Source: Fragilaria crotonensis
Lineage: Eukaryota; Bacillariophyta; Fragilariophyceae; Fragilariales; Fragilariaceae
Length of the DNA: 64,000 bases
NCBI GenBank assembly: GCA_022925895.1
Contig: JAKSYS010000056.1
Span: 1 to 64,000, forward strand
Direction: 5' to 3'
The notes below the pieces were generated by a model. That model was not told where the DNA came from. It worked only from the letters and a program-made list of their open reading frames with translations, and made no database searches. Positions within the stretch are counted from its first letter, which is position 1. Every line of letters starts with the position of its first letter. The translations under genes were made by a program, and so were the position numbers. Of this stretch, positions 5,661 to 33,174 are shown in pieces.

Positions 5661-7102
5661 CCTAGTGTCTAAACGCCCGAAATCTTTAATTAAAGATTGC
5701 TTAGTGGTAAAATCTTTAATTAAAGATTGATTTGGCCCCTACTCAACTTCGTTGTTTTATGATTTACACCCAAATTACTACGGCCAATGTGATCTCCATA
5801 AAGTCAAACCTCATGGGCCAAACGGGGTCATCTTAGTCAGCGACAGTTTCTGACGTACGTTCTTGAACACTAATCTGAAGCCCATTTTTCCAGTTTTTGC
5901 TTGGAAAATACCCGGATATACAGTACTCGAGATACGCAGGCTACACAAACTCAAGTCATTCGAAGCCTCAACAAACACATTAACTTCATCACCTTCCACT
6001 TCGATTGAGCTAAAACACTCAAGTGCAATCGTCTTAAACTTCCTTTAAACGAAAGGTATGTAGTTGGTGTGAATCTCTAATTTTTGTTATTTGTTGAATT
6101 GTGAGCACGAATTTGAGGTTTTTTATCACGCGCCACTATTTCATTGACACCCCATTTCTCACTTCCTTTGTCATTTAAAGCGCTTGTGTTGACCATTCAA
6201 GTCCAACCAGATGACCCGAGACCTTTGTTGGTGGTGCATTGTTTGAAGCAAAAGTGATGTTGCCGCAATGGAAGCAACTTAAAGCAAGAATGCCAAAGTA
6301 CATGGTACCCCCGGCGAGATTTGATGTGAAGGATCACTCGGTGGTAATTGGTTGATGCAGGTGGTGAAACAACGAGCAAGCTTGAATACTTACTGTGGCT
6401 GTCAACAGGGATGATGTTGAACAATTGTTGGCATTACACGACGACCTCAAGCAATTTGGTCTCGTGTCGAATGAACGATGTCGCCGCATCGTCGAATCCT
6501 GTTGTACATGAGACGCCAGCCAAAGTCGCTATGACACAACATTTTCTGCCACCAAGTGAGTCTGGATCAAGACAATAGCGCCAGCATCAAACGTACTCAT
6601 ACTGTCAGAAGCAGGATGACCGGAGCATCTATAGTGCTGACCGCAAAACTGTATATGGCTGGTGTTGTTGTTACACAACCGACAACCAACAATGACAAAA
6701 CCTCACAGCTTTGCTTCATTGGAGACTCAGTGGATAAAGCAGACTAGCCTTTGATGAAACAGGAGATGAATTGACGAAGGGTAGCTGCCGGTATGAAGGT
6801 TCTTCGAGTGCACAACAATCTTGTTGAATTTCACAATAAAACAAAAGTTAAACATTCTGACCCACCTACAAAGCTTCTCCAGTGTATAATGAACAGGTGT
6901 CAATTGATCCTTCACGAATGTAGCACAAGATATGTGATGAAATTGATGCCGGTGGTCGGCCATTGTCGATGTTGAATTTTGTGTTCATTATGGTACAAGA
7001 TGTACCTTGACCGTCTTGCAGAACGTACGAAAATGGTCATCTTTAAAAAAAGACAACTTTGTCGTTAATTAAAGAAACCCCCCCGGGCGTTTAGACACTA
7101 GG
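5661..7102. mobile_element. TIR element of 1442 bp, non-autonomous
   Basis: The ends are a perfect 19-bp inverted repeat: CCTAGTGTCTAAACGCCCG at 5661-5679 and its inverse at 7084-7102. A further shared TCTTTAATTAA lies just inside each end. Near the left end are two perfect 18-bp palindromes (5681-5698 and 5711-5728). The interior has only weak open frames (for example around 6190-6970) that I do not recognise. I saw no clear target duplication. Confidence 0.65.
5681..5728. repeat. Pair of perfect 18-bp palindromes
   Basis: AATCTTTAATTAAAGATT occurs at 5681-5698 and again at 5711-5728, exactly 30 bp apart. Each copy is its own reverse complement. A partial copy sits near the right end of the element (about 7063-7073). 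Possible transposase binding sites. Confidence 0.85.
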
Positions 7103-7983
7103 ATATGACGTAATTGATGTCATAGGTACCGACGGGTGTCATGAGAAAGTGTTGAAACAACGTCAATCATGACGTCACAATACTGATGCTTTCACGTTCA
7201 ATGTCAACTAACACAGTACAAGTACTCCATAAACTTGTAGCGCACGAAGGGAATCCCTATGCATATGGGGACGAATAAGCAGAGACGTCATCTCGCTGCA
7301 TTCTAACCTGGTACTCGGAGTCGTTGTTGGTGGAATACCAGGTATCAGTACTACCGGTAGTACAAGGTACTAGTACCTGGTACCTGGTACCTGGTACCTG
7401 TATGCATACCTTGTCGTTCGACAGCGACTGCTATGTATGTGCGTCCGTTGTATACGCTTGCAGACGCGCATCTTGACTGCTTCCAGGCTCCGGGCACCAG
7501 GCACCCACCACCACGTGATGGCAGATCCATTCCGACGTCAGCAGCAATTCACGACTCGCTTTCGTATCATAACAGCTCTTCTGTCTGCGTAACGGTTTAC
7601 CTGCTGTTTATAAAAATTCTAACGGTTCTCAGCCGTGTTGGATAACGGTTTCTCAAAAGACAACGTTTTTCTGCTGACGGTTTGTGCTCGTTTATCTAAA
7701 GCTAAAGTACTTGTACTGGTGCTGTGACATAAAAGCATCGGTACAAGTACCCTCGTAATAGTACGTATCAAACACTTTAAAGCGGCATCACGGCATCGTC
7801 ACTCCTCATGACTCAGACTCATGTCCAAACCACTTTAATAGTGGCGCACGCCACTGTTACCACTATTGAGCTAATAGTAGCGCCGCCAGAAAGTTATTAG
7901 TGGCTCATTGGTCACGCAAGTGTACGAGAAAACACTACTGCTCCAGTAGTCAATAGAGGTGCAAGTGTCTAGCTAATGGTAGT
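7103..7983. other. Non-coding interval
   Basis: No gene supported. It contains the GGTACC repeat (7341-7400) and, at about 7875-7905, a GCGCCGCCAGAAAGTTA segment that recurs in the same orientation at about 10195-10222, the far side of the hAT-like remnant. Confidence 0.5.
7341..7400. repeat. GGTACC-type short tandem/palindromic repeat
   Basis: Tandem CTGGTACCTGGTACC units preceded by ACTACCGGTAGT and GGTACTAGTACC palindromes. Low-complexity, able to form hairpins on either strand. Confidence 0.8.
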
Positions 7984-10149
7984 ATGTTAAAGCAACATGG
8001 ATTGAAGCCTCATAAACTGCTTGGCATGCAGAATGCATTCCAAGAAAAGTCTGTGAGACCAATTTGGCAATCATCTTTCTCCCACTTTACAATAGAGAAG
8101 CCACTCGTGACACCGGATGTCCCTGGGAATGCAGTTGCTAAACCTCCACAGAACATCTTGAGGTGCACAAACCAGTCCAAGACATAGCCCCAACCTTGTT
8201 CAAAGGTCATCTTTGCATCACACTGGTCCAGGACCTGCTAAAATGCAGGCTCACGCATTTATGCTGAGCAAAGATCTTGGAAGTCCAGTTCAATGAGCTT
8301 GACATGTTGCCAATCAATCAAACTGTAGGAATACAACATTTGCAAACTCTTGCCTGCCGCAATTTCAAAAGCTAATGTGGTAGGACTGGTGGCATGAAGT
8401 CAGCAGCATCAATTGATGCAATCTGTGCAATCAGTTTAACAATGCAAGTTGCTATGTATTTTATAATTTGGCATCATGGCATTGATTCCCGCTTCATTGA
8501 TTGCCGTGATAACAAAGTTACCCAAATCCTCCAAAACCGTGTTGACATCATCAAGCTTTATGGAGTAGTTACATCCAAATCCAAACACGGATGATGTTTG
8601 AATGTCAATAGCATTTGCAGCTTCTTCAGATGATGGCCCCAATGCCTTAAACCACGACATGTATGCTGCCTGCAATTGCAACAACCCTTTGCATTGCTGT
8701 GAAACAAGGGTTGTTAACCCTTCAAGACTTCTGAACATGTAGTTTCCTTTGCATGATACTTTCTCAACAAATATAATGCAAACCCACCATGCCATTGGCG
8801 GTTCACAAGATGGTTTCTTCTCATTGAGGTATGCTTGTTGTACACTCAGTCTATGCTGTCTGAACCAGGAAGCGACATTCAACATTGATTCCCATTGAGA
8901 CTCCGCAACCTTCTTTGCCTTTGTTTTCATCTCGTTGATAAGATTTTGTTGTCTACCATAAGCCTGGGAAGGATAGAGTACTCCTCATTCATGGTGGCCT
9001 TGATGAATGCCTGTAGTGCGATGTTGAGATGATGCTGACAACACCAAAGTTGGAAGAAGCCAGGTTTTGCAACTTGTTTGTAATGAGTGGCAACGCCTTG
9101 CACTCGGCCAGTCATCGGTCTTGCGTTCGCCGTCTGTCAATATTGAAATAATCACATCCCTCCAACGACAGCAGATCACATCCAGTGCCTTTGCTCCATG
9201 AAGAAAAATCTCCTCTCCAGGGGTCTGACGGCTGAACATTGGAAATGGCAAGCAAATGGAGTTATGTATTGCTCCAGTACCAATGAAGAGATGAATGCGG
9301 ATGTCCAAGTATGAAGTAGCCATACGTGTAGACATGTCCATAGCAATGGAAAAGGTCCATGTCAATGCCATCACTTCCAAGATCTTCTGAAGATTCACAG
9401 CATGCGCTATCCCCCAAATATCTTGTGACCTTGCCTTCACTGGTACTACCGAGTACTATGGAAGCCAGACATGGTCTGTCTCTAGTCATCTGCACAATCC
9501 TAGATACCATACGAAACAATGCACCTGCACTGACATAGTAGTCAATAGCAAGCTGAAACTGTGCACGATTCCTGAGAATCATACAGAAGCCATCTGTCTG
9601 CAGGCCATCTTCTTCCTGTCCAGTTACATACTCAAATATTGCCAATGCCCGTTCCTTGGGTCGTGACCTCATCGTTTGAGTCATCAGGATGGAAGGAGAG
9701 CATGCATGTCACCAATGATAATGTCAACAATGCCTTGTTTGTTTACAAAGAAGCAAACGCACTGTGGCCTGAGATCCACCGAAATGCGATTTGAGGGTAT
9801 TGCATTGAACAGCTGGTGCTTCTTCAGCCATTGAAAAAGGCAGTCTGCTTTCCTTCTTTGTTAACTCATTGCTGTATGTCTGCCAATGAAGTGAATGCTG
9901 CGAGAGCATGTGCCTACTGTAGACGTCAGCTCGAAAGGGTTTCTGAAAGTACGGTGTGTTCTCTGTTGCCTTCCCTTTGGCACCAATCAACAGGAATCCG
10001 AAACTAGCTACTGTCTTTGTGTTTGCATCTCGCTCACTACTGTGCGACCGCATGCAAAGACATGGCTTTTGTTGAACAGAGTCGCCCTTGTGTTTGGGGT
10101 CATCGTGATGAAAGTATGTAGCTACTACTAGTAACGTGAAAGCGAGCAA
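7984..10149 (-). pseudogene. hAT-like transposase remnant
   Basis: Minus-strand coding fragments in several frames line up in the order of a hAT-like transposase of the oomycete/diatom type. First comes an N-terminal part with YFQKPFRADVYSRHMLSQ (about 10000-9900). A central part follows with RMTGRVQGVATHYKQ and FFQLWCCQHHLNIALQAF (about 9115-9010). The C-terminal part is FPGTSGVTSGFSIVKWEKDD (about 8130-8060), like the hAT dimerisation region. At least four frame shifts separate them, so it is inactive. A GCGCC(G/A)CCAGAAAG motif lies in direct orientation on both sides (about 7877 and 10195). No intact TIR or 8-bp target duplication was found. The family assignment is by remembered motif wording, not by alignment. 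Confidence 0.55.
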
Positions 10150-10286
10150 TAAGCCGTAGTAGTATAGATTCTACGTAAAATACTAGTTAATATTGGCGCC
10201 ACCAGAAAGGTTACTAAAAATGGCTAATCGTGGTTTTTCCCACCAGACTACACTATTAAAGTGGCCTGCTCATGACACATGTGGAG

Positions 10287-10372
10287 AGATCCTCTCTTTT
10301 GTTTACAGTACAGAACCCGTAACCTTATCAGGATTTGGCGTAGATTTGACAAAGTAATTTAACCTACGGAGT
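10287..10372 (-). repeat. Copy of Harbinger transposase-upstream sequence
   Basis: Reverse-complemented, this 86-bp segment aligns with 49803-49888, immediately upstream of the Harbinger transposase start. Shared words are CGCCAAATC, AAGGTTACGGGTTC and CTGTAAACA, followed by GAGGATCTC. It is probably the end of a Harbinger-related fragment. Confidence 0.55.
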
Positions 10373-11219
10373 CCTCCAAGTACTACATCGTAAATTGATG
10401 TCCTCAATTAGGTAGAGTACAGGGAGTAATACAGGACTCCAAGGGTAAGTCCATACAAGACAACTTCGATCAAAATTTCCAAGTACACAAACGATAAATT
10501 TTGGGTTCGATACTCGTCTGCTGCGCCAACCTCCGTTGCTCCATTCACTCTCCATTTGGTTTAGGCTCCGGCTTGCCTAGGTTCTTGTGTAGGCTGAAGT
10601 CGGTTGGTATGAGGACCCAAGACTGGGTCTTGGATATCCCCGCTTTTGGATGTTCCTGTTGTCCAAATTGTCTTCAGGATAAAGGTCAAGAATTGCCTCT
10701 TCAGTTCTGTTTGGATCAGTGAACATCAGGGAACGCAAATCTCTGGTTTATCCATTTTAATGTAATATTTATTACATAATAATGTGTGACCAGAGTTTTT
10801 ATAAAAATATGTATATTCTACATCATTATGCAAATGCATATCGTGCGTTGAAGATCCAAATTCTCGGACATTCTGTTTCACATAAATATTTGAGTTTACA
10901 CATCATTTGTTCCCTAAATACTGCATGTTGCACATATTACTTTGGCAGTTTCAGTTCCATTCCTCTTCTTCTCCATCGTCTCTTCCTTCCATAATCGTGA
11001 CTTGTGCAGTGAGTCCTATACTGCGTATACTACATACTCACCGTCTTCTCATTATACTCACGCGCCAATTTTTCCTTTGTGTGATGAGCGTCAAATGCTA
11101 GTATTACGACTACAAGGAGGCATCATTCTCCCTCATTTTTTTCTCTACGTTGTCGTCTGTTGTATGCTTTATATTCATTGATTCCAACATCATCCCTTCT
11201 GCATTTCCTTGTTAAGAGA
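10373..11219. other. Non-coding interval before transposase
   Basis: No gene supported. AT-rich from about 10740, with pyrimidine-rich stretches. It probably includes the 5' end of the following transposon, but I could not define a TIR. Confidence 0.45.
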
Positions 11220-14141
11220 ATGTTTGTTTGCTACAACATGAACTGCTACTCGCAGTTCCGAACTGAACGCGGTTTACAACAGCATTTGTGGCACAGTTCT
11301 GCCTGCAAGGATTACATGTTGGAACAAAGGGATACTGATGCCGGTATCGAGGCCATTAATAGCACACGGCGTCAAGCATATGGAGTTCAATGCACACGCC
11401 TGAACTATGAAATGAATGCCGAATTTCCATTGTATGCTCCATATGAAGAATTTCAGTATGATGCACCATCCGATGACTTTGATGGTGACGACACATCGGC
11501 ACTCGATGACATGTACGGCCATTTAGATGGCTTTGCCTCATCGATTTCTGGTCTAGAAAATGTCTCTCCCTCTGTTTTACATGGAATCATGGAACGCATG
11601 AAAGCCAGCGATCGCCAAAGCATCCTGAATTTGCAACATGATGTCGAACACAGAAATATTGTGGAACTACTTAAGATTCTGGAGGATGCCCAATGTCCCG
11701 ACTACATGTTGCAGAAAATTTTGCAATGGGCGTACATTGCAAAATTAGATGGCTTTGACTTCAACCCCAAAGCTACAACAAGGAAGGCAAATATTGGGTG
11801 GATGTACCGGTGTCTGGAACAGTCACATCAACGATTGCCTCATGTGATCTCGACAACTCTCGAGGACCAAGAGGCAGCTCAAGACATTGTGTGTTTTGAC
11901 TTTGGTGTTTCTCTTTTGTCGATGCTGCAAGATGATGAACTTATGTTGCCGCAAAACCTTGTGATCAATCGGGACGATCCAACTTCGATGTATCATCCAT
12001 TGGATGGCAAACTTGGGGAGGCAAACAGCGGTCAGCGCTATCGTGACCTATACAATCAATTGATCACTCCAGGAAGAAATCAGCTCCTAGTTCCGATCAT
12101 TCTGTACCTTGATGGAACCGCCATTGACAGCAAAGGTCACATCGAAATATGTCCGGTGTCGTTCACAACTTCTTTGTTCACGGAGAAAGTCCGCAGAGAC
12201 AGTGGTGCATGGCGTGTCCTGGGTTACGTCCCCGACCTGAACCGCGGACGATCAGGTGCCATGAATCAATTTGCAAACAGCACTTCCGAGGAAGGAAAAG
12301 GTAGAACGACTCGTAATTTTCACAAAGTGATGGATGCCATGATGAGGGCATGGTCGAAGCGCAAGCCGGCAAAGATTGTCGACTGAAGAAGGTTCCTTTG
12401 AAACTTTGTGGGAAGTGGATTGTCGTTGATATCGTCTGTCCTCTGCTCTTCGTCATCAACGATGGCAAGCAAGGGGATCAACTTTGTGGCCGCATGAATG
12501 GACATCACAGTAGTATGAATCGTCATCATCGATCATGCGACTGTCTCTTTGACGATCTTGACAATCCAGATGTTGAGTGCACTTTTCTTGATGTCGACAC
12601 GATCAATGATATCTGTCGCAACGGCTCCGACGACGACCTTCAGGAACTCACGATTTACAAGGTTGATAATGCCTTCAACCGCATTCAGATGGGGCAAAAC
12701 GCACATGGTATCTTTATGTGCGCTGTCATTGATGTCATGCATACTATACAACATGGTATCATCATGTACTGCCTCGAATCGTTCAAGAAAGGGATTAGCA
12801 ATGAATCACTGGCAAAGCTTGATGGAATGGCATTTTCCTTTGACAAGACCTGTCGTCAAACTATACGATCTAGTTTCCCACGGACTGACTTCTCACGTGG
12901 AATCACAAACCTCTCCCAGGTCGAATGTTCTGAACAGTCCGGCACTCTCTTCCTGCTTGCGGCCCTTACAATGCAAGTTGAAGGATGGCATCTCCTCGAG
13001 AGACACTTCGCAGATATGGAGGCTGTTTTGGGAACAATCGAATGCCTTCTGTGTTTTGAGGCTTGGCTGGATCAGTTCACATTTTGGGATGTCAACGATA
13101 CAACTGGTGAGGCGGACAAGGCTGAAGCTGCAATTGCTTCTCTTATGCGCCTCATCGTGAAGTATCTTCCGCGATTGAAGGGCAATGGGTGGAAGGTTTC
13201 AAAATTTCATGAGATCAAGCACATCGTCCGCTTTATCGGTGTGTTTGGTGCACCCGTGGCTACAATGCGTCCCGTCCTGAGGAGCATCACAAAGCGCATG
13301 CAAAACGTCCCGGCCGACGTTCACAGAAGGACATGAACACCATCGACCAGCAGTGTGCGCGCAGAATTGCCGACACCATTGTTATTGATACCATGCATGG
13401 GTTGTTCCAAGAAAGAAATGTTCTTGGGAGTGTCGACAAGAACCGCATTGACACTCCCACTTATCGTCCTCCGTATGTTGGCATCAACACTGACGGTGAC
13501 AATCCCGCAATAGAAGAAGGCCGTGGAACAATGTATTGCATCAGGTCGTTTCGAGATCCCGAAAATGGTGATCATTTGGTACGAGACGTCAAGTTCACCA
13601 CGCAAACAAGAGGACCCATGCATTTGGAGGACAATCTTTCGATGTTCATCATACAGTACTATGGCTCCTCCGACCTTGATGAACGAGGGGGAAGGCAGCA
13701 TCGCGTGCTGCACAGAATACCACAAGACTGATTCCATCACGAAGGAAAAGATGATATGCATTCGCTGCCATCCCAATTTCAGAGCCAAGGGATATCCATG
13801 GTACGACTGGGCACTTATCCAGTTTGAACTTAGTACAGGGGTGAAAAAAGGACTTTCCATGTCGTGTAGTGGCTTGTGTTCCAAGACAAACTGACAACGG
13901 ATTCTCTTTTGACCTAATCGTACAAAGCTGTTACGAACCAACCGGTCGCGAGTCGTTTCTCTTCACCGAGTGGTCGTTCAGAAAAGACTTCCATGTTGTG
14001 AGTGCAACCGCACTGGTCGCCTTATGCCTCGTTCTTTGCAGCAGTGACTTGAATGGAGATGTCCTTGTCGTAAATGACAGGGACAAATGGCCGTCATACT
14101 TCTACGAAGCTGCAAACGTAGAATATAACATGCACGACTAA
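11220..14141 (+). pseudogene. Plavaka/CACTA-like DDE transposase, frame-broken
   Basis: The product begins MFVCYNMNCYSQFRTERGLQ, a C2H2/C2HC-type zinc finger (Cys-x4-Cys then His and Cys near residue 29-36). A core follows with LVPIILYLDGTAID (first Asp, about 12090-12130), ending EICPVSF. Then come VRRDSGAWRVLGYVP and, after a shift, VIDVMHTIQHGI (second Asp, about 12725-12760) and TNLSQVECSEQSG (candidate Glu, about 12905-12945). This D...DxxH...E layout and the N-terminal finger resemble Plavaka transposases of the CMC group. Single-base shifts near 12360, 13315, 13725 and 13880 break the frame; rejoined parts would give about 970 residues. The gene converges on the oxygenase at 14143-16326 with no gap, which suggests one mobile unit. 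The family call is by motif similarity. Confidence 0.6.
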
Positions 14142-14142
14142 G

Positions 14143-16326
14143 TTAGAACCCAGTTTTCTGCTTCTTCCTTGTTGCAATTTCTCCATCAAGGCTGGATTTC
14201 TTGACGTTGACGTTTGAAGTCCGTTCGCATGCATCGTCTCGTTTCTCAAGCATCGCTCGTCGCCAATACCATCCCAACCATGTCGTCGGGCATCCATCCT
14301 TGGGAACAGGGCCATCGTCAGGATCAGCATCCTTGATTGTCGGTGCAAATATCTCGTCCTCATCCGAAGGCTCCTTCTCATCGCCTAAAATTCGTGAGCG
14401 CTCCTCATCGGTGTATGCGAATTCCTCCATCTCTTGCATCATCTTCGCCCTCCTACGCCCTGCATTTACAAGGCGTTCCTTTGCGCAGGTGAAGGTGCCA
14501 TACAGGTGATTGAGCGATCCTTTCCCGGAACCCACAACATTGGTTCCCACACCGTCAGGTCGTGAAAGCGAAGTACAATGCCGGATTAAACGACCATCCC
14601 AGCTGATGGCCGTGCCGTGACGAAGTTTGATGGCAACACCCTCGAAAGCCCTGCCGTCAACCGAAACTCCATGTAGGTTGGGCATGACAAAATACCAGTT
14701 GTCCGCCACACCTGGCATCTCCTCTGTCCAGACACTGAACCCTTGGGATGCATCGTTGCTGTCGAAGTGCGATGCATTCGCAAGATCAACTGACATGTCG
14801 ATGGAGCCTCCAACACGATTGCCCTTGACATCACCGGCCATGACAGCAGCAGGTCTTACACCGGCGTCTCCCTCTGTGTCCTGAATCACAGACAGCACAT
14901 CAGGGAAGACAACACTTCCAATTCGTGCAAGTGCATGTACAAATCGTCTCGATAGCTGCGAGGAAACCTTCTTCCCGACAGCATACTCCGCAAGGGTCAT
15001 GCCATCAAGCATGACTCTCGTTCCAATCGGATGCATGGCACCAACATCACCCTGGTCTGACCTCGCATGGCCGGCGCGGACGTGTCTCCTAATGACTGAG
15101 TTGTGCATCGTGATCAGGGGCAGCTCTCCAACAAAGTAGGGCCAGCCCTCGTCACCCCAATACATCTGCTCCAGTTCTGGGGAGAGGAGGTTTCGCACCA
15201 TCACAACTGACTTTCGATTCATGTACGTTCCAATCGGTGCGATGTCAACAATGATGTCAACATGAGGGGCAGAAACGCCGTCGATGACAAGGCAGTCACC
15301 AGGAATCTGCTGGTGCAAACAACCTTTAGCATAGTGCCTTCCACCAGGTCTCGCAGACAGTGCAGAAGCCAGTCGTTCGTTGAAAGCTTGGCCACGATCT
15401 GCGTTCGGCCAAGCAGCAATGTTGTGGCCACCAATGACATCGGGCGCCATGCGTGGACCTTCGGAGTCAGAGCACTGACTCGCCAAATATACAAGACGTC
15501 TCTGAAGCTTTGGAACAATACTTGTCGATACCCTCCAAATCGACACTCGCCCATCGGGGACATGGTAATTCCGTTCTTGGGCAAGTCGCTTTACATATCC
15601 ACCGACGCCAAACGAAAATCGACCGTTGTAGGGAGCCACCAGAGCATCCTCTTGAAATCGGAACCAACTTGCATCAAGCTGGATGTGGGCGTTGTTGCAA
15701 CCCACCTCCGACCGACGACGCTCACGTGCACAGTAAAGACGCCAGCACCGGGGAGGAAGGCGACCAATGTTCGATATTTGAAGTCCACGTCATCCACGAG
15801 ATCGCCATCACCATACGCTCGCACCATGACAACAGAGTCCGGGTCAGGTTCAGCGACGTCATCGTCATTCCGTGGGGTGACAATTCTACGGTTGAGGATG
15901 ACGTCCATCAGAAAGAATTCCGAAAGGTCGTCGCGCATCCCAGGGCTCGGAAACATCTCATCCATTGAATTGAGCTGACATACCCTGTACTGAGGCCCGA
16001 AACCCTCCTTAAACCATCGAACAGGAGTTGCACACAAACAACCGTCATCGCCAGCCCTTGCCCTTCCTTTTGTCATTGCCTCTTGGAATCGATGCTCCAT
16101 CAACTCTCGCCCCGAAGGGGATGCACTTCACGGCAACCCTCAATGCCATTGAGTGAGATGGCAGGAAACTCCGCTCCGTACGAACTCGTGGCATGCCAAA
16201 ACCTCCGTCATTCTCTTCATCCACGCCCAACACTCTTGGGTTATTTCCCAGGTTCATCACGCTGGATCTGCAAATTGAAGTCCGCCCACGTCTTGAAATT
16301 CGAATGTTGTCGAAGTTCCTGATCAT
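14143..16326 (-). CDS. Transposon-borne predicted 2OG-Fe(II) oxygenase (TET/JBP-like?)
   Basis: The best-preserved part is 520 residues (15705-14143). It carries a double-stranded beta-helix signature: H313-F-D315 (codons 14761-14769), then a strand, AIKLRHGTAISWDG, ending at H376, with Arg382 following. That is the HxD...H...R iron and 2-oxoglutarate site with the usual spacing of about 60 residues. The C-terminus is acidic, then lysine-rich. The protein continues upstream in two other frames (15591-16103 and 16045-16326) after shifts near 15705 and 16080, giving about 720 residues in all from a Met at 16326. It lies tail-to-tail with the Plavaka-like transposase. TET/JBP oxygenases are known cargo of large eukaryotic transposons (notably KDZ elements in fungi). 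The substrate here, possibly 5-methylcytosine or another base, is inferred only. Confidence 0.5.
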
Positions 16327-17520
16327 GCAAAAGTATGTCCAAGCTATATGGCAGGGACAGAACGATGATAATCAGGTGGAAACAAAAGATAGATTTGTTG
16401 TCGTCAGCTATATGGCAGACCTCAACAAAGCAACTGTTGCTTGTGGTTTTCTTCAAATGGCGGGTGCTTTGCTTTGTTGTCGTCAGCTATATGGCAGACT
16501 TCAACAAAGCAACTGTTGTGAAGTGTTCTTGCTTGTAATTGGTGTTGTGATGTGTTGTTGCAGTGAGGAGGACCTGAAATCAACAAAACTTGTGTATTTC
16601 GCTGAAATACTGAACGACATTTTCGGCGAAGTACAGCCGTGGTACAAAATGTACTACGACTACGTACGAGAAAATCACGGGACGCATGGTCAAAATTACT
16701 TAGCAAAAGTGTTTTACCTGCTACGTAGTTCCTCAGTACCAAATGTACGGCAGCGAAGAAGGTCCAAAGCATACTAGGCTATCCGTAAGAAGATAAACGG
16801 TTGGACGTATTGCTTATTTATACACATATATGAACACTTTAAGGAGTATAACATTGTGCAACGCATATTCCTCTAAGTAAAAATATAGGTCCTTTGCAGA
16901 GACATGCGAGAGCCTGCCGGTAAACTCGCTGTTGTATATTTGACTGCCTATTCATGTACATACATATGCGTTTAGTAGCGTATAAGGTATAAACATGTGT
17001 TTTAAAGTACAATATGAAAATACAACGGTACACAACGATCATATATATTTTGAACGTAGCTACTTAAGAAATTGTATGTTTATCTACGCAGCATTCAAAC
17101 CAAAGCCTTCGCCATTTCACCAATGTATATCTAAATATGCGTTGAACAGTTTATTCTGCATTTGTATATAAGTTTTAATTTATATTATATAAATATTAAA
17201 GTATATAAGATACATACATATTTGAAACGAACGAACTTTTTTCATTCATAGATTATTGTACAACAACACCACCACAGCATCAGTCCATTCAAAAAGGTCG
17301 CCACCACCACTAGAAGTCACCACACCAGTTTGATTACTCTTACTCTTTTTGCCTTCTAGTAAGAAGAAGGCGTTGTTGCATGCATTGAAACCTGGATTAA
17401 AGAACATAGCTTTGTTGTGCCATATAGTGTGACATTGCTGAATTCTGCTACGGTTACCAACCGCTGTTGCAAAGCTGCAGAAGGTAAGGAGGTGAGGATT
17501 TGTGTGTTGATATCATTGCG
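16327..17520. other. Transposon flank with tandem repeat; no clear gene
   Basis: This holds a 79-bp tandem duplication (16394-16521) and an AT-rich stretch (about 16800-17250) with many short ATATA words. An open frame at 16193-16777 crosses the repeat and shows no conserved feature, so I do not call it. Confidence 0.5.
16394..16521 (+). repeat. 79-bp tandem duplication
   Basis: TTTGTTGTCGTCAGCTATAT with the following GGCAGAC(C/T)TCAACAAAGCAACTGTTG occurs at 16394 and again at 16473. A partial third AGCTATATGGCAG unit lies at about 16342. Confidence 0.8.
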
Positions 17521-17697
17521 GTGCATGATGTCGTCGTCCCCAGTGCGTCAGAGCACAAGATTACTAAGGGGTAATGCGCAAGGTGCAGCACAAGGGAACG
17601 TGCAAGACCACAACCATATCCTGATGAGTCACCACGTACAGCAGCAGCAAGAGTAACGCGCAGCAGAGTAGCACCTGGAAACAGTCGGACAACTCCT

Positions 17698-19222
17698 GTG
17701 AGCACTGAAGCGGCGGCATCGGTTTCAACAGCAGTCATACCATCACCAAATACAAGAGGTGCAGCTGCCAGAGAGGCGGCGGCATCGGTTTCAACAGCAG
17801 TCATACCATCACCAAATACAAGAGGTTCAGCTGCCAGAGTGGCGGCGGCGGTTTCAACAGTCATACCATCACCAAACACAAGAGGTGCAGCTGCTCGTGC
17901 CAGTTTGGGTGCTGCTACAGGGATACCAGGTCCATCAGCACCTGATATCCCTGCAGGAGGCCGGCGTTCCCGTGCTGCTCCACATGCCAGTGCCCGACGT
18001 GTTCCTACTACTACTGCTGCGCAAGCTCCAGCACCAGGAGCAGCAGCTGTTGCTACTGCCCGTGCCTATGCAGGCGTAGGCATAAATGCTGCACCAGCAG
18101 CAGTTATGCCTGCAAACCTTGGACAAGATTTTGTTGGTGAGGCGCTTCTTGCTCAACGAGGGGGTGGAGTTGCTATACAAGGTGGCGGAGCAACAAGGAG
18201 GAGGCAAGGCGGACAAGGAGGACAACGCAACACTGTTGCAAGAAGTGCGGATAAGTTTGCAATTCAAAAGTGTGTGAAGGAATATGTGTTCCCCAAACAA
18301 AAGTTTGTGACTGATGGCGACCTAGATTTCAGCAACAACGAAATGTCCATTTGTCGATGCATGGCGGCGGTGCTAGATGTAGACAATCGTAATATTGAGA
18401 ACTGGTGGGAGACTGCAAGGAAAACAGTGAAAGAGTCGATATATAGGCACAGGAACAACACAATAAAGAAGATAAAAACAGTATTCCAAGGTAAGATGGT
18501 TGCGAGCGTCCATTTCAACCATTTAATTCTGAACTTCTAACCCTGAGTGTGTGCTGCCTTCTTCTCCTCGATACACAGATATTATACTGCCAAGGAAAGG
18601 CAGATTTAATGAAGTCTTTAGCATGGACCGAATCATAGCATTGAGAAATGACGCTTTGGAGGGTGAAATCTACATGGACTTATTGGACGACTTGCTGAAG
18701 ACTGTGGTTGGAGCCACCAAATTCAAGGAGAATAGGTGCGAGAAACATCTAAGTGAGTGGTTCACTGTCACAGATGAGGCATTCCTCCTCTTGTGTCTTG
18801 AAAATTACTGGCAACAATGGCATTACGAATGGATGGTTAACAGAAATGGACCGCCCGCCGACGAACCTGCACCTGAAGTCATTAACCCACGGTACACGGG
18901 CAAAACAAGGGGCACCAAGCGAAGTTGGTCAAGGGAAGGAATGGAGCGTTTCAATAACCTGGCTGTATTGGTCTATAACGACAGAAGGGAAAGGGGCGAA
19001 GAGTTCGATCAGTGGTTCCTTCGGGAAATGATACAATCATACGGTGATCGTAATCGAGATGCAGGAAGGGAAAACATCGAGGCAGAAGTTGTCAACGCAG
19101 CACCGACAATTGTGTATAATGAATTCAATATGCAGCTCCTGATCGCCCATGCACAGCACCAACAACTGCAACCACCAGCTCCTGAAGAAGATGATGTCGA
19201 CAGAGTTCAAGAAGCCGTGTAG
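17698..19222 (+). CDS. Uncharacterised two-exon protein with Ala-rich repeats
   Basis: Exon 1 (to 18490) and exon 2 (18579-19222) are joined by an 88-nt GT-AG intron in phase 1; the splice restores one open frame of at least 479 residues. The N-terminus is Ala/Ser/Thr/Pro-rich with three near-identical units of about 20 residues (SVSTAVIPSPNTRG). The basic middle is QGGQGGQR-like, followed by a helical domain with conserved-looking ENWWETARKTVKESIYRH and WLREMI-type helices and an acidic end. The frame is open upstream to 17575, and an ATG with a plausible start (MMSSSPVRQSTRLLRG, 17526) is in another frame, so the true start may lie there if one base is missing. Polyadenylation-like AATAAA lies at about 19427. 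I do not recognise the family. It could be a transposon accessory protein, given the neighbours. Confidence 0.55.
17713..17892 (+). repeat. Tandem coding repeat, about 60 bp x 3
   Basis: Three units with GTTTCAACAGCAGTCATACC at their core and CCAAATACAAGAGG at their end. The third is slightly shortened. They encode the Ala/Ser-rich repeats of the gene. Confidence 0.8.
18491..18578 (+). other. Spliceosomal intron, 88 nt
   Basis: Donor CCAAG/GTAAGA and acceptor TACACAG/AT. Removing it joins exon frames that are otherwise in different phases and skips the stop at 18538-18540. Confidence 0.75.
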
Positions 19223-19539
19223 GTTCGTGATACCTGGTAGTAGAACTTTAGAAACAATAACGCACAGTACAGCACTGAAACAGATTGCAACCCCCCAGAA
19301 TTGGTCGTAGCAGCAAGCTGAAACCGAAGAAGAAGTTGTGAATATTTCTCAATCAACTATGAATAAAACTGAGTACGACATAACAAATATTTCTCTACAT
19401 TTTGTACATATTAATTTTGAATTATAAATAAAAAAGTAGAAACTTGTAAATATGAATATAAGAAACATTCGGTAAAACATCACAGAAACATTTACAAAGT
19501 CTTGTAAATTAAGATGTACAAATCAGAGATTTGCACTCC

Positions 19540-22500
19540 CTGATGTGGCTTGAGTCGGATCGGGATGAAGGCCTTGTTGGTTCAGAATGGCCTTTCTCGG
19601 GTCCGGGGTCCTCCTGAGAGGTTTGCCTTGAATCCGTGACGTCGCTCCAGAAAGGAGTTGTTTGCAATCATGTCTCTTGACATGTTGTTTGCTCACTCTA
19701 GGACTTGTGGTTGTATGTAAACCAAGAAGGCATCAGATGACCACCGTCCTAGGATCATTGTCTTGTGAACCGGTGGTTCATCAAGAACATTGACATGGCG
19801 GCCCCGGACCGAAGGGACTTGGTTTCTATGTCCCTATCTTTGAACCCAAATACTTTTGCCCTCCCAGTAGTGGTGTACACATGGGTTGCATGTGCGATTG
19901 TAGTGGATCACTCGTGACGTGAGTGGTCTTCGTTCTTGATAGTCGGGTTGCATTGATTTGGGTCTCGCTCCTGGCATCCGGGACTAGCCGCAGTCTATTT
20001 GGGCTATGAGTGATGCCAGGTTCTTCACCGGCCACAATACTGGGTCCCCGTCCACTGGTGTGTCCTTCTTCTGGTCTTCAAACATCAGTGTCACCCTTTC
20101 AGCTGACAACTTCATCTTGGGGCTATTGAGGTCCAATGCATAATGGTTGCCGTCGCGGAAGAAGGCCACACCCCAAAGTTTGATTACTCGGTTCTATTGG
20201 GCGAGGGTGTGGTGGTTATATCACACGAACGCATAGCGAAGACGTATGTCACAATTGCAATTTCTTTTGTGATTGTCAAGGCGGTGTCGCTCGTGTGTCA
20301 GTGGGCCTTGCTCAGAGAAGTTTTGGTGTTACTGGCTGCCCTCGTCTCTTGTCATGCGAGCGGGTCGGTGTTCTCGAACGCCCTCATCAGGCGACGAGCG
20401 AAGGGTCGCAGGTTCGTTCCCCCGCCTTTGACATTGAGGGGGATGACCATGATATGACTCCCAAATGCCGAAGCCAAGTGGCCTGCGGCTTGTTGGATAG
20501 TGCCGACTCCCAAAGGTGGATAGTGCCGACTCCCAAAGGTGTCGGACAGACACCTGTAAGGCTCCTCGTTGGGACCACTGGGCAGTTCCGTAATGCTGTA
20601 GGAAGGACTTGGTAACCACATCTTGCTCGAGTTTCTCAGCAGGGTAAGCGGACATGTCGATCTGCTTAATCATCTAGAGCTTGGGGCCTCTTTTGCTGCA
20701 GGAGAACAATAGGTTGTGGGTCCACCGGTACTTGTTCACCCGAATTCCATCTGTGTCAATCGTCAATTGGCTGGCTACGCGCAGGGGTTGGACGCCCACA
20801 TTTGGGATCTTTACAACCGTCATGATGTGAGGGGCATTGCGAACCCAGGACTACATTCTTATCTAGTAGCTTAGACACTTGGTCCAGGAGGTCATGAGCA
20901 CACTTGTGGTTCCCTCCCTCTTGCAAGGATTGGCACCATCTCCGTTTTATGTTCTTCAGCAGGACTCAGTTCTTGTGTGAATATCAAGTCCATGCTGTGG
21001 TTAATGACATGGGCCAGCATGTTAAAGTTTGGGTGTTGTCCCAGCCAAGAATAAGGGTCTGGAGTTGCTTGTCGATTGGAACTCCGATCCGTACCCGATT
21101 GTGGTCTTCCGGAATTGTTTGATCAGCACCTCAAGATCATAAAATTGGGGTTTGCTCGCGCTGCCTCCGTTGGTCTCCTCGCAAATTGGTGAATCGTCGG
21201 CGACTTTTTCGGTGTGGGTGCCACGGTGTTTCCGATTTCGGTATGCGCCGATAGGAACCACCCTGGCGGGGTGAATTGGTCGATCGGTCCCTCCATTGGT
21301 GGTGGGAAGGATTACTCTGGGTCCACCTCTACTAGGTACGTCCGTTCCGGACCCCCGTTGGTGGTTTGTTGCTGATGTCCATGCCTGTCCGCCGCACTTA
21401 ACTCACCTTCCAATACTCGTTTAGTACTTGTCATCAGCGTCCAACGTCCTCAACCGCTCGTTATGTCGTTCGTGACGCCTAGCCCACAATCGGGCCGCAA
21501 CTTGGGATGATGATGCGGTTGGGGGAAGGCTTTTCTGGTTGGGTTGTTCTCGGGTTACTAGCGGTTTTGGGCTGTGTTGGTTAGTGGTGCTGGGTAGCTG
21601 CTACTGCTCGCATATCTGGTACCGATGGTGTGGGGATGGTGTTGTTGGCATCCTTGACCGCGGCATTGGGCACTACCCCAAGGAGGGCAGCACCAAGCTT
21701 GTTTCCCCTGACCAATTCCTGGTGTGCCTTTGTTGGTCGGCTCCCCCTACCGGTGGAGTTTTGACCATCATTGGTCGAGGGCGTGGGGATGTGGTGACCC
21801 TTGTCCCAGCATGTGCTGTACTTGTCGTATCCTGTTGCTGCGTTGGAGTAGCGCTGTTACTCGGGATGGTGCTGCCCTCCTCCCCTCCCTTCTTCAGCAA
21901 GTTGTTGGTGGTAAGATTCCTATGGTGCTCCCCGGCGGCCTTTCCCAACAACTGTCCCCATCATGGTGATGAAAAAAGCCCTGAGAAGCTTAAGCAAAGT
22001 CTCCAATATGCATGAAAAATTCATCGGATTCGTGACACAACCATTGTGAGGGAATCCTTCAAAATTCCAATTAAAAAAAAACCATAGAATGTCTGTGAGA
22101 CAAAAGATATGTTCCTCTCTCATCAAGGCTAACAAACAATTTTCTAATTGAAAATCTTGTTTTGAATTTGAATTGGCAGGAAGGTATGGCAAAACTCCAG
22201 TGCTTGGTACTCAATATACGTAGGAAAATATCCCCTGAAGCTTAAAGCCTCCAGTATGAATTATAAAAGCAAGAGATACGTTGACATGTCCGATAGAGAA
22301 GTAGACATTCCTCGCTCATCAACCTGGACAAACAAGCAGATTTGATCATATAATTGAAAACCTTGTTTTGTGACATTATACAAAATATTATTTAACACTA
22401 TTACTCAAAACAAAATGTCCATTGGTTGACATCATCACAGGCTTCAAAGAAACTTATTTCACTTGTGTAAATCCTGTTGTGTTTCAACAGATTATTTGTG

Positions 22501-25914: not shown

Positions 25915-26137
25915 ACGAAGTTGTTCGCTGCGCCACTTCGAAACCAGTCTGTTGTTCTCTCTTGTTTCCGTTCGGGTTGCCCAGAGTATCTCTCCGTCAT
26001 GATCGACGGTGTAGGTAGTCAGCATTAGTGGTGACGTACGACTGTAGGGGCGAGGTAGACTGATGTTTGGGTTGGTCGAGGGGATTCCCTCGACGGTAAA
26101 TTCAGCTCCAACTCCCCGGATGTTGGGTGGTCCAGCC
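25915..26137 (-). repeat. Split direct repeat B2
   Basis: 223 bp, beginning ACGAAGTTGTTCGCTGCGCC, matching 26523-26745 except for one G/A difference at about 26029. On the plus-strand right it is followed by a short unique spacer (26138-26167) containing a second GATGTTGGGTGGTCCAG. Confidence 0.9.
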
Positions 26138-26167
26138 GATGTTGGGTGGTCCAGAGGTGGGCTTGGG

Positions 26168-26523
26168 GAAAATTAAACGATTAGTAAGCTATTGACTTAG
26201 TTGCTGGGATGGAAGTTTGCTTGGCACAGTCGGTTCACTTTGGTGGATCGATGTGGGCAAAATCTCCCACTCCAGCGGCTTGGATCGGCGAGTTCACGTT
26301 GCAGCTAGTTTTCGCGTTCAACGGTGAATCGTGGATGTCACCGTATCCATTACGTATGTATGCATACAACATGCCGATACGACATGCCGATATGAACTGC
26401 CGATCCGGGGCAACGATAGTACAGGTAGTCGTGCCCGTAGTGCTGCCCGTACAGTACTTTCGTGCCCCGTTGTAGTAGTGGCGCTGGAGGCACAGTACTG
26501 TGCTCCCACCCCAGACCATGTAA
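26168..26523 (-). repeat. Split direct repeat A2
   Basis: 356 bp, identical by eye to 33175-33530. An 88-codon open frame in it is identical in both copies, but only because the DNA is; there is no evidence that it is a gene. Confidence 0.9.
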
Positions 26524-26745
26524 CGAAGTTGTTCGCTGCGCCACTTCGAAACCAGTCTGTTGTTCTCTCTTGTTTCCGTTCGGGTTGCCCAGAGTATCTC
26601 TCCGTCATGATCGACGGTGTAGGTAGTCAGCATTAGTGGTAACGTACGACTGTAGGGGCGAGGTAGACTGATGTTTGGGTTGGTCGAGGGGATTCCCTCG
26701 ACGGTAAATTCAGCTCCAACTCCCCGGATGTTGGGTGGTCCAGCC
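26523..26745 (-). repeat. Split direct repeat B1
   Basis: 223 bp, abutting A2 with no spacer, and lying directly 3' of the recombinase gene. Confidence 0.9.
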
Positions 26746-26781
26746 ATTGAACTCCTCCCTGAACCAAGCACTCAACTTCCG

Positions 26782-27975
26782 TCAGTGGTGAAGGTGCATC
26801 CTGTTCGGCACCTTCCTCAATCCGTTCGCTAGCGGGGCTCCCGCTTTCGTTCTCGTTCGCGGGTCACTTGGGATTACCCGTCTCGAGTCAGCTGCGTCGA
26901 AGAATGAATCGTTCTGGATCATGTCTCTACTCAGCTGGTTTGTCCATTCAAGCACTTGGGGCCGGATGTAGTCCAGGAATGCGTCCGATGACCACCTTCC
27001 CAATATCATGATTTTCGCCACTGGTTGGTCCATCAGGAACAGCCCCATCGCGGCTCCTGACCTGATCGACCGCGTCCCGATTTCGCCTGCCGTGTATCCG
27101 AAGGTGCTCGCTCCCCCTCCCTTTGTGCACGCTGCTCGGAGGCTGCTCCGCAGTTCGCTGCTGGAAACTATTCGCGTTCCCTTCAGTGTTTGGATGGTTC
27201 CGACGGGCGTTTCGTGGCCAGAGTTGGGGACTCTTTCCAGGACTCGCAGAACTAGGGATGCCAATCGCCGGACGGGGCACATTACGCTGTCCCCTGTCCT
27301 CTCCTGAGTTCGTTTGTCCATCTTAAGTCCGTTCTTCTGGTTCTCGAAGGTGACCGTCACTCTTCGTGCCGTCCCGAGATCTTGTTTCGATGTGTGCGGG
27401 ATCTCTCGGTGCTTGGAGTCCCTGAAGACTACTCCTTCAAGTCGGATGATCTTAGTTCTTCCAGGGGTCGCCGTCTCTGTTATTTCGCACGACCTCATCG
27501 CGAAGAAGTATGCCGCGATCGCTATCTCGGCGATGACTGCTTCGCGTGTGTCTCTTCTGTCGATCGTCCCTGCTCCTGACTGCTCGAACATAGCTCGCAG
27601 GAGCTGGGGTGTCGCGGCCTTTTGTTTCCGCTTCGGGGGGTCCACGTTGTCGCAGGCTTTGAGCCATGACTTAATGAAGGGTCGCAGGTTTGGGGATCCT
27701 TTGAGGTGCAGGGGGCTGACCCCGATATGGCTCCGAAACGCCGCAGCCAAGTTGCTTGCGGCTTTGCGCATAGTACTCGCGACCACTGGTTCGCGACGAT
27801 CTCCCGAAGGTCTGCCCCTTGCGTCCCACTCGGTCCCTCGAAAGAAGTCGAGGAACGCTCTGAGGAAGAGGTCTCGCTCGCCGTCGGATAACAGAGTGAG
27901 GAGGGGGTCATCCCCGTACCCGACGTGGATGCAGTATCCATTCCAGCGGCGCCATGTTCTGTCGTACGACTCGTT
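26782..27975 (-). CDS. Tyrosine recombinase of the retroelement
   Basis: The enzyme would integrate the circular cDNA. From the Met at 27786 there are 334 residues. The catalytic set is Arg98 (AMRSCEITE), Arg239-x2-Arg242 (GTRSIRSG), Trp265 (GRW) and Tyr273 (LDYIRPQ). The first position of the usual HxxR box is Arg here, and Lys in the older copy at 19540-23272, so the family seems to use a basic residue instead of His. The frame is open further upstream to about 27975 with a plausible SAM-like N-terminal domain (WNGYCIHVGYGDDPLL), overlapping the end of the RT/RNase H frame. A single-base shift near 27975 would make RT-RH-YR one polyprotein. Confidence 0.8.
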   Translation of the reverse strand, partial: NESYDRTWRRWNGYCIHVGYGDDPLLTLLSDGERDLFLRAFLDFFRGTEWDARGRPSGDRREPVVASTMRKAASNLAAAFRSHIGVSPLHLKGSPNLRPFIKSWLKACDNVDPPKRKQKAATPQLLRAMFEQSGAGTIDRRDTREAVIAEIAIAAYFFAMRSCEITETATPGRTKIIRLEGVVFRDSKHREIPHTSKQDLGTARRVTVTFENQKNGLKMDKRTQERTGDSVMCPVRRLASLVLRVLERVPNSGHETPVGTIQTLKGTRIVSSSELRSSLRAACTKGGGASTFGYTAGEIGTRSIRSGAAMGLFLMDQPVAKIMILGRWSSDAFLDYIRPQVLEWTNQLSRDMIQNDSFFDAADSRRVIPSDPRTRTKAGAPLANGLRKVPNRMHLHH

Positions 27976-30969: not shown

Positions 30970-31066
30970 TGAACTTTGACCGTCTGTGGGCGGGAGGGGT
31001 GGGAGGGAGGAAAATTTTGAGTGGCCATCAGTGGCGGAGGGGGTTTGGCCCCGATGGCCGACGCCT

Positions 31067-33173
31067 TCAGGCATTATAAACTGCCTTAAAGCGGGCTGTG
31101 GCTGTCGCCCGGGCGCCCTCGGGCATGTCGAGGGCAGTGATGTGGGCCAGGGAGCAGCTCTGCTGGCACTTTCCGGTTGACTGAAACCGGACACACATGG
31201 GTGCCTTCTGTGTCTTGTTCAGCCGCTTCGAGATGCGTGTGTCCAGGAGCACTGGCCACCCCTTGAGCCCTGGCATTTTGGTGCCAAACAAGTCCAGGTA
31301 GTCGGTCCCGGCGGGCAGCATCCAGGTCGCTACGGGGTCGGTGTTCGGGTGGCTAACATCGTCCTTCGCTGCGGCTCCGGCTCCGGGTGTTGCTGGCTTC
31401 TTCTTCTTCGGGGCTTTATCGTTGGCGGCGACATTCCCCGCTCGCTTGGTTTTGTCCGGCGTCGAGGTGCTGGCCAGAGCGGTTGGTAGCACGACGTTCA
31501 ATCCTTGGCCGTCTTCGAGTCGCTCGACGAGCTCCTCCGCCTTGTTTGCCAGGTAGCGGGACTGCCCCTCCGTCGCGATGTCCTCCCACCTCGTCACTTT
31601 GTTGAAGAATGTTTGGAGGTGCCGGTCGAGGGCGTAGCAAAACTTTGCCCCGAAGTCCTTCTCCGATTTGAACCTGTCGTTGAGGACTGTGGTCAGTTGA
31701 GACCATCGTCTTGGTTCGAGTATGTACGCCAGCCCCTTCCCTGCGATTGTCCCGTCGCAGGTCAGCAGTTCGAGCATGTCGAGGGCCGTCTGAAGTTGGA
31801 CTCGTAGATCATTTGGTGTGTTCGGGGTGTAGAAGCCCTGTTTCATGTAAAACTCCAGGGTCGCTTCGTCCACATCCATCCCGAGGTACTCGCGCAGCAG
31901 TTCGTTACCACCTCTCCCCGTCTTGGATCCGAGATCCACTGTCTTCGGGTGAAACATGAAGATGGTGTATCCGCCAGGGTTTGCCCTGTTCGGGTCCTGA
32001 GAGAAAGCCATTCGAGAGCATCCGGTGGAATCCTCCCACTGAGAATGTCCCCTCCCAGTCTCGTGTCTCGGACTGGATGAGGTTTATCGCCTTCTGCGGA
32101 GTCTTGCTCGTCGTTAAATTTGTCATGAACTCGGTCATTACGGGCTCAGCGTTCATTCGTCTTGTGCAGAGCGAGGTGAAGAGGCCTCGCTGGGTTGGCC
32201 CCATGGCCTTCAGGATTGATTTCTCGGAGTCCTTCTTCTGTCTGTCGGCTTCGGCTCCTTCTTGAAATCGGCTGAGCAACGCGACCATGCTCTGCGAGGA
32301 TGCTGCCATCATTTCCATGCTCGCGGTTCCTTCGGTCGTACCCGGGGCTCCGGCGACCCCTCCCGTTGGGAGGGTCCTCTGCTCCCCTGCTAGTCTACTT
32401 CGGACTCCTCGAATGAGGTGACTCATCATTGTGCTCTCGGGGACGTCGACGAGACGGATCTCCCGGAGTAGTCCGTTCTCAGAGGCCCACAGCATGGCTA
32501 ACGTGTCTTCAAGTCCTTCCGCTTCCGCTTCCCGCTCCGTGCTGATCTCGTCGTCGTCTGCCGCTGCATTCTGGAAGGCCTCTATGATCGCGAAGGCTAG
32601 GTCCCTGGCTGATATGACTTTAGCTCCCCCGACTTCTTCGAAGATCCCAGGTGTGATGAGGCAGTGGTTCGGGCGATTCGTCAGGATTGGGTTCCCTTCT
32701 TCCGCGAGGTTTGCGAATTCTTCTGGCGACTCGGCTGACATCATGCTTTCCAAGGTTGGGACAGCAAACGCTCCCCTGTTCCCTTCATCCTCGCCGGGAT
32801 CGGGGTTTCGTACCACGGCTGGAGCCACCATCTCGTCCCGGTCGACGGTTTTGAAGGTGGTTGTGTCCTCGATGTTTCCGTGCGCGAACGCGAGCGAAAA
32901 TCCGGCGTCGGTGTTGCAGGCGAACCCGTGGTGGATCAGCTGCATGATTCCTCTGCTTCCCGGGACCAGTAACATGTTCCCATAGTCGCTCCCCGTGATT
33001 GTCTCTGTCAGCTTAGCGGCGTTGTTGAGGTGCCCCTCTGTCTTCCTTGCCATTGCTGCTCCGTTCGTTTCAAAGAGCGCCTGAAAAGGTCCTCCATCAT
33101 CCCGATTTCGGGCGTAAAAATCAGTCCACTTGTTCATAGCAGTATTTCCTGCGATGTTAACCATGGGAGCCAT
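31067..33173 (-). CDS. Gag-like protein of the retroelement
   Basis: The product starts MAPMVNIAGNTAMNKWTDFY at 33173, two bases inside repeat A1. The first frame runs 422 residues to 31905, and the second (32011-31067) carries the remaining 314 residues after a shift near 31995 (LSNGFLSQDPNRA is split between frames). The C-terminus has a CCCH-type finger, Cys-x8-Cys-x3-Cys-x3-His, near 31190-31135, after a Lys/Pro/Ala linker. The position directly after the 5' repeat and the terminal zinc finger fit a nucleocapsid-type gag of a DIRS-order element. I saw no other known domain. Confidence 0.7.
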
Positions 33174-33174
33174 T

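Follow-up and report, generated by a model that had tools for sequence, protein, structure and literature searches.

The 64,000-nucleotide stretch of Fragilaria crotonensis DNA analysed here (the window) contains a three-gene DNA transposon, which encloses the transposase−oxygenase pair recognized earlier. From sequence comparison and structure prediction, the element very probably belongs to a family of PlavakaB-like cut-and-paste DNA transposons, with an oxygenase of TET/JBP-like fold. The element would encode a DDE transposase, a strongly diverged Fe(II) oxygenase adopting this fold, and a conserved third protein. Taken as a whole, the data are best explained by a PlavakaB-like element whose TET/JBP-like oxygenase would edit the element's own DNA, a reading to which we assign a probability of roughly two in three. 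The initial annotation had taken positions 11220−16326 as the transposon; both genes do lie in this interval, but it is too small, the element spanning 10724−19545 and including the third gene (table 1).

Table 1. Features of the transposon, in window coordinates.
Feature	Positions	Strand	Basis
Whole DNA transposon, PlavakaB-like, 8.8 kb	10724..19545	.	Copy boundaries; eight full-length copies
Left terminal inverted repeat, CATCAGGGAACGCAAATCTCTG...	10724..10761	+	Pairs with right end
Plavaka-type transposase gene, zinc-finger-like N-terminus, DDE core; frameshifted here	11220..14141	+	ORFs, C529 homology, motifs
TET/JBP-like oxygenase gene; upstream part frameshifted	14143..16326	-	ORF, relatives, predicted fold of L028
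R372..R375-H376-C-T378-S379, predicted distal metal-binding His	14569..14592	-	18-sequence alignment
S312-H313-F-D315-S-N-D318, predicted metal-binding HxD and D+3 position	14752..14772	-	Computed from ORF start 15705
Third gene exon 1, low-complexity N-terminus and conserved block	17575..18490	+	ORFs; start only approximate, the open frame being longer in other copies
Predicted 88-bp GT-AG intron of third gene	18491..18578	+	Visual reading
Third gene exon 2, conserved block without known family	18579..19222	+	ORF; relatives at other loci
Right terminal inverted repeat, ...CAGAGATTTGCACTCCCTGATG	19508..19545	-	Pairs with left end

The element boundaries were placed where sequence common to the copies begins and ends amid differing surroundings. 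The terminal inverted repeats are approximately 38 bp long, with 32 of 38 positions matching when the left one is compared by eye with the reverse complement of the right one. The termini of the window copy (CATCAGGGA..TCCCTGATG) and those of C529 (CATCAGAAGG..CCTTCTGATG), a complete diverged relative of 10.1 kb with three open genes and a transposase scoring above the Pfam Plavaka cut-off, both have the form 5'-CATCA..TGATG-3' published for PlavakaB of fungi, the branch of Plavaka in which TET/JBP genes are found (PMC12730594). PlavakaB target duplications are 2−3 bp long (Kojima 2025, PMC12730594); here, a 2-bp duplication is present in seven of the eight copies in which both flanks can be read (TT, AC, CT, TA, TA, GA and TG) and in C529 (CA/CA), and is absent from C109 (GA/TA) and from the window copy itself (AA/TG). 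The genome, in which genes for silicic acid transporters point to a diatom, contains eight full-length copies (8.73−8.85 kb) at different sites. The search for terminal repeats in other copies, proposed with the initial annotation, found one pair of inverted repeats flanking both genes in all eight and in C529, which argues against nested insertions having placed two unrelated genes side by side, a scarcely credible reading even if three of 36 oxygenase−transposase neighbours are not tail to tail. The CpG observed/expected ratio is 0.86 in the element versus 0.94 in one window flank and 0.83 in the other; since the element is not clearly CpG-depleted, no deamination scar is claimed.

The transposase and oxygenase genes meet as initially described, on opposite strands with one base between their stops: the plus-strand frame ends with TAA at 14139−14141, base 14142 is free, and the minus-strand frame ends at 14143. 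Contrary to what would have spoken against the pairing, the two genes remain neighbours in other genomic copies. The tail-to-tail arrangement was found in nine of nine close copies (from 92 of the 93 rows of the search, secondary rows in already represented loci being omitted) and at 24 of 86 further oxygenase loci, a recurrence that exceeds chance. The total of 95 oxygenase loci may include duplicates or haplotypes and leaves aside a 308-bp oxygenase remnant in C818. At 59 of these loci no transposase was detected within 8 kb, which would favour a mainly host multigene family of oxygenases, copies of which were picked up by transposons. Such an origin is nevertheless quite improbable: detection is limited, scores having been obtained for 83 of 423 candidates in one genome search and for 61 of 540 in another, and searches with the window transposase and with PF18759 recover largely different subsets of loci. 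That transposase loci with no oxygenase match are truly oxygenase-free is contradicted by C26, the one such locus examined, where the N-terminal portion of an oxygenase, diverged in sequence, is present; this also weighs against the host-family origin.

The Plavaka assignment of the transposase, initially made from the window alone, is supported by the termini, the target duplications, the sequence motifs and the PF18759 match of C529 (31.8 bits versus a cut-off of 26.3), to which the window-family copies are homologous (BLASTP, 7e-37). The same profile gave no match in the window's own ORF pieces or in two long ORFs of near-identical copies; across the genome it identified 80 places. The Plavaka/CMC superfamily is defined by a D..D..E pattern in which C(2)C and H(3-4)H lie between the second D and E, and the transposases conform to it: D, D, E and H(3)H are conserved where covered in six aligned sequences, two of which are parts of the window family and one of which lacks the N-terminal half. 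The C(2)C pair is present in C529 and L051, with HxxC in its place in L050 and the window family. The acidic residues of this pattern would be the catalytic ones.

On the oxygenase side, the window ORF at 15705−14143 of the minus strand, open for 520 residues, corresponds to the 3' part of a gene with its ATG at approximately 16326. Among relatives with an intact oxygenase, the frame measures 747 aa in C529 and 761 aa in C137. An alignment of the window sequence with 17 relatives, picked mainly for long open frames, shows S312, H313, D315 and D318, as well as R372, R375, H376, T378 and S379, to be invariant (18/18), so that the HxD...H predicted metal ligands of TET/JBP oxygenases are present throughout. 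Purifying selection acts on the oxygenase in relatives. Thus, of the initially proposed H313xD315...H376...R382 signature the three metal ligands stand, but position 382 is Arg in only five of the 18 sequences. No conserved Arg is found shortly after the distal His across the alignment, so that 2-oxoglutarate (2OG)-dependent activity is not assured. The Pfam Tet_JBP profile matched none of the 18 sequences, and Pfam scans of these, of five of the element's ORFs in the window and of the longer near-copy ORFs returned no oxygenase family; sequence searches of the PDB yielded matches at chance level only, none credible, and scans of viral and prokaryotic contigs found no relative. A PF12851 search of the genome was also without match, but its controls were silent too, so that it is not evidence. 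With the Pfam match absent, the oxygenase is named TET/JBP-like and not a member of the family by sequence; the class initially read from the motif is upheld by the metal ligands and the predicted fold, and not by the sequence profile.

The structure predicted for the relative L028, which is not the window's own protein, has a pTM of 0.73 and resembles double-stranded beta-helix oxygenases, with TET/JBP enzymes ranking first, the outcome that the initial annotation had anticipated. Human TET2 and Naegleria NgTet1 are the best structural matches and share the HxD...H ligands, with 10% and 7% identity, respectively, over the residues aligned with L028. Foldseek TM-scores are modest (0.20−0.24 by query and 0.18−0.52 by target for the first 16 matches), with non-TET 2OG oxygenases next in rank at E values of 3.9e-4 and 8.5e-4. 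An oxygenase that keeps fold and metal site to act in nucleic acid repair or on RNA, as AlkB or FTO do, and so aids transposition instead of evasion of silencing, is improbable, by taking into account the gap below the TET group (17.4−12.4), whose matches align 242−300 residues versus 169−208 in the rows beneath. Among viral predicted structures, the best match was the unnamed A0A516M562 (1.5e-7).

In diatoms, 5-methylcytosine marks transposons and methylation silences them; methyltransferase knockouts exist. The oxygenase might act on the DNA of the element itself, flipping out and oxidizing a modified cytosine, which would most likely be 5-methylcytosine. The oxidation would lift or alter the silencing methylation, and the element genes would be expressed or the element ends kept usable. 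The predicted match in fold to enzymes that oxidize methylated DNA bases, next to a transposase as in fungi, suggests that members of the family may alter the very marks by which they are kept silent. For 5-methylcytosine oxidation as the specific use of the enzyme we see an even chance. A TET/JBP-fold oxygenase with another reaction, which would hypermodify a base (thymine as JBP does, or by CMD1-like ascorbate transfer) and protect the element, is a less probable alternative: D318, at the position of the contact with N4 of 5-methylcytosine, is invariant and fits cytosine over thymine, and another basic residue (R372, R375 or K409) could bind 2OG. CcTet, NgTet1 and TET2 have a 2OG-binding Arg shortly after the distal His, whose counterpart is not recognizable in the diatom oxygenase; CMD1 of Chlamydomonas reinhardtii, although a TET homologue, makes no use of its own 2OG-site Arg. 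This algal enzyme of TET fold also has an Asp three residues after that of HxD (D347/D350), as in the diatom oxygenase, with 14% identity to the L028 model over 280 aligned residues, and the portions of the source available describe no role as transposon cargo. It is conceivable, if rather improbable, that diatom PlavakaB oxygenases are a new TET/JBP-like branch lacking the usual 2OG arginine, which would use another co-substrate to place a new or hypermodified base on their own DNA, as a eukaryotic counterpart of phage hypermodification directed against silencing; their capture would then have been independent of that in the fungal TET+ transposons.

TET/JBP-carrying transposons have been described in fungi (PMC12730594); none was reported in diatoms among the matches listed in the open-licence literature. 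The closest known systems are the TET+ PlavakaB of Agaricus bisporus and Gymnopus confluens (Kojima 2025, PMC12730594), with which the present element has in common the Plavaka transposase, the CATCA..TGATG termini, a target duplication in the 2−3 bp range and a TET/JBP-fold oxygenase, here predicted, encoded inside the element. It differs in its diatom host, in a third conserved gene between the oxygenase and the right end, in the large size of the family (counted with possible duplicates or haplotypes) and in HxD as opposed to the HxE of the PE-type oxygenases of these fungi's transposons (PMC12730594). The KDZ transposons of fungi (Kyakuja, Dileera, Zisupton), which the initial annotation had taken as reference, are likewise DNA transposons with TET/JBP cargo, but their transposase is different and their target duplications are of 7 bp (Kyakuja) and 8 bp (Zisupton) as compared with 2 bp, which sets the element apart from KDZ; PlavakaB is the closer published case. 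The pairing of a transposase with a TET/JBP-like oxygenase, known from fungi, is thus also present in a diatom, and the family adds a TET-like branch missed by the sequence profiles used here. The large, selected and partly young diatom family makes the idea of mobile DNA editing its own epigenetic marks directly testable.

Relatives of the third gene lie 5' of the oxygenase on the opposite strand at 32 of the 95 oxygenase loci, and the predicted intron would preserve the frame across both exons. Structure prediction for four sequences gave a pTM of 0.30 and Pfam matches were at chance level.

All three genes are frameshifted in the window copy, the transposase being read in five pieces plus one stop, the oxygenase in three and exon 1 of the third gene in two. 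Comparison with four near-identical copies gives 83 indel events (59 single-base, 35 within homopolymers) and 91 substitutions; since indels are about as frequent as substitutions, part of the frame breaks may be assembly errors. The window copy and C43 were considered as two alleles of one insertion, a candidate that was rejected: their left flanks are a common repeat up to position 10511 and then diverge.

The tail-to-tail arrangement of a Plavaka-like transposase and a TET/JBP-like 2OG oxygenase, proposed in the initial annotation, was recovered, with the + strand transposase stop codon (14139-14141) separated by one free base from the − strand stop at 14143, and with H313-F-D315, H376 and R382 present in the 520-aa − strand ORF (15705-14143). 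No Pfam family was named for any of the five element ORFs scanned. In the window, the transposase frame is broken into five pieces and contains one stop, the oxygenase is split in three and a third gene has its exon 1 in two parts; the frames break at partly different places among near-identical copies. Between the window and its four closest copies 83 indel events were counted (with shared events counted more than once): 59 involve a single base, and 35 fall in homopolymer runs of at least three, which make up 15% of the bases. Long-read assembly error, mixed with possible decay, is likely to be behind some of these indels; all three genes are unbroken in none of the nine close copies.

A DNA search of the genome (62.1 Mb, 881 contigs) returned the oxygenase gene in nine nearly full-length copies, that of the window included, at 97-100% identity, along with partial and diverged ones. 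Comparison of their surroundings set the element boundaries at window 10723/10724 and 19545/19546, with common sequence inside and differing flanks. Eight copies are full-length (8.73-8.85 kb), and the ninth, on contig C157, matches window 13178-19127 only. The left end reads CATCAGGGAACGCAAATCTCTG... and the right end, reverse complemented, CATCAGGGAGTGCAAATCTCTG.... A 2-bp target duplication is found in seven of the eight copies with both flanks readable (TT in C17, AC in C405, CT in C471, TA in C170 and C43, GA in C230, TG in C818), the window copy, flanked by AA/TG, having none; C650, with its left flank cut, is outside this count. Relative to the window, the copies on C17, C405, C170 and C650 carry only 18-29 substitutions each in 8.8 kb (62-128 for the other three compared), so the family has been mobile in recent times. 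The copy at C818:126-5471 (locus L027) has lost the equivalent of window 11967-15395 internally, keeping both ends and its duplication, and is likely a non-autonomous derivative. The sequence at window 6100-10511 is a repeat shared with C43:94439-98835 (97.5% identity), and at each site an element copy follows approximately 200 bp beyond it, amid different sequence.

Six transposase sequences were aligned, two of them parts of the window family and one without its N-terminal half; wherever covered, all keep the acidic triad and H(3)H, and HxxC replaces C(2)C in the window family and at locus L050. One diverged element, C529:17653-27776, is complete at 10.1 kb, with the ends CATCAGAAGGTGCG and CACCTTCTGATG and the duplication CA/CA. 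Its transposase matches the Pfam Plavaka profile PF18759 (1.1e-7, 31.8 bits, above the cut-off of 26.3) and is homologous to that of the window family (24% identity, 7e-37). Contig C109 carries similar ends and a transposase split over two frames, with no matching duplication in its flanks (GA/TA). In fungi, PlavakaB elements have CATCA..TGATG termini with target duplications of 2 or 3 bp, and every TET+ Plavaka family belongs to PlavakaB (PMC12730594). TET+ Plavaka elements are already known from fungi, and the diatom is a new host lineage. That article is about fungi, with no occurrence of the word 'diatom' counted in it, and no report of TET-carrying Plavaka in diatoms was found among the publications listed in the literature search. 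Plavaka also occurs outside fungi, in Amoebidium (PMC11244446) and in a green alga (PMC12633428), with no TET gene mentioned in the passages concerned. The diatom element differs from the fungal ones in its HxD oxygenase branch without recognisable 2OG Arg, its third gene and its many copies. Gene 3, located between the oxygenase and the right end, probably contains one predicted 88-bp intron and matched no known Pfam family.

A protein search gave at least 93 matches merging into 78 oxygenase loci (36-100% identity; best 83 of 423 candidates scored), to which DNA matches add 17, for a total of at least 95, where haplotypes or duplicates may be included twice, several locus pairs scoring alike. 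The window-family transposase was found at 48 or more merged loci (best 61 of 540 candidates scored) and PF18759 at 80 places. By either search, a transposase lies within 8 kb of 36 of the 95 oxygenase loci, tail to tail in 33, on the same strand in two and on the other side in one, with approximately 3.2 neighbours per 95 expected under a uniform random model ignoring repeat clustering. With the nine close copies excluded, the figures are 27 of 86, 24 tail to tail. Gene 3 is within 8 kb of 35 of the 95 (32 on the opposite strand, 5' side), and 24 loci have a transposase as well as gene 3. No transposase was detected within 8 kb at 59 of the 95 loci, and no oxygenase hit within 8 kb at 61 of the 80 PF18759 places. 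Locus L052 (C26:29100-33100) has a transposase fragment adjoining gene 3 and an N-terminal portion of a diverged oxygenase, and probably represents a further internal deletion in an element of this gene arrangement. At C599:13872-23485, transposase (97%) and gene 3 (98%) have no oxygenase match between them, the spacing exceeding that of the window by approximately 2 kb.

For the oxygenase, dN/dS was 0.10-0.18 (NG86) in the ten closest pairs with measurable dS, which share sequences, come from a set chosen for open frames, leave out saturated pairs and have dS <1 in only three cases (0.17, 0.10, 0.18); selective constraint on the enzyme has been maintained in the lineages covered. In the diatom oxygenases, the residue at the position contacting N4 of 5mC is an invariant Asp (D318). 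In TET2 and NgTet1 this position stands three after the HxD Asp, and a distal His precedes R1896 and R289, respectively. The contact is made by N1387 in TET2, D234 in NgTet1 and D350 in CMD1, Gly331 being the CcTet counterpart (PMC11040006); counted from the HxD Asp of CcTet (D328) and of CMD1 (D347), it is the third residue (PMC11040006, PMC7854593). With D318 invariant, cytosine is favoured as the predicted substrate. The 2OG-binding Arg follows the distal His in CcTet (H376/R385; PMC11040006) and corresponds to R289 in NgTet1 and R1896 in TET2 (PMC7854593); no conserved counterpart after the distal His was found in the diatom oxygenases aligned. Arg410, the aligned residue of CMD1, points away, and this enzyme uses vitamin C instead of 2OG (PMC7854593). 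R372 and R375 are invariant and K409 is present in 16 of the 17 sequences reaching its position; these residues could serve in place of the 2OG-binding Arg.

The silicic acid transporter family marks diatoms, and the host is a diatom because such genes were found in the genome (PF03842; 19 matches, among them a tandem frame of 1456 aa; best E 4.0e-193). Cytosine DNA methyltransferases are also encoded (PF00145; 13 matches, the best at E 5.9e-67). In P. tricornutum, DNMT5a loss is accompanied by a global drop in methylation and by overexpression of young transposons (PMC9998398). The simplest reading would be that the element supplies its own predicted base-oxidising enzyme, which would lift or alter the methylation mark on transposons.

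Elsewhere in the window, positions 26001-34000 combine high GC (0.53-0.61), strongly negative AT skew and long − strand ORFs, three of which had no Pfam match.

Other ORFs of the window and genes of the complete element on contig C529
Feature	Location	Strand	Length	Match or frame
Protein kinase ORF	window 37436-38518			PF00069, 5.5e-26
Protein kinase ORF, sequence similar to preceding	window 41243-42382			PF00069, 6.1e-23
Ankyrin-repeat ORF	window 33607-36459		951 aa	PF12796, 4.8e-204
Transposase ORF, second DNA transposon kind in window	window 50257-51345			DDE_Tnp_4, 9.9e-22
Sulfotransferase ORF	window 46653-47855			PF03567, 4.8e-18
DUF6824 ORF	window 57140-58810			PF20710, 4e-29
Transposase	C529	+	1159 aa	open, stop to stop
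Oxygenase	C529	−	747 aa	open, stop to stop
Gene 3	C529	+	604 aa	open, stop to stop
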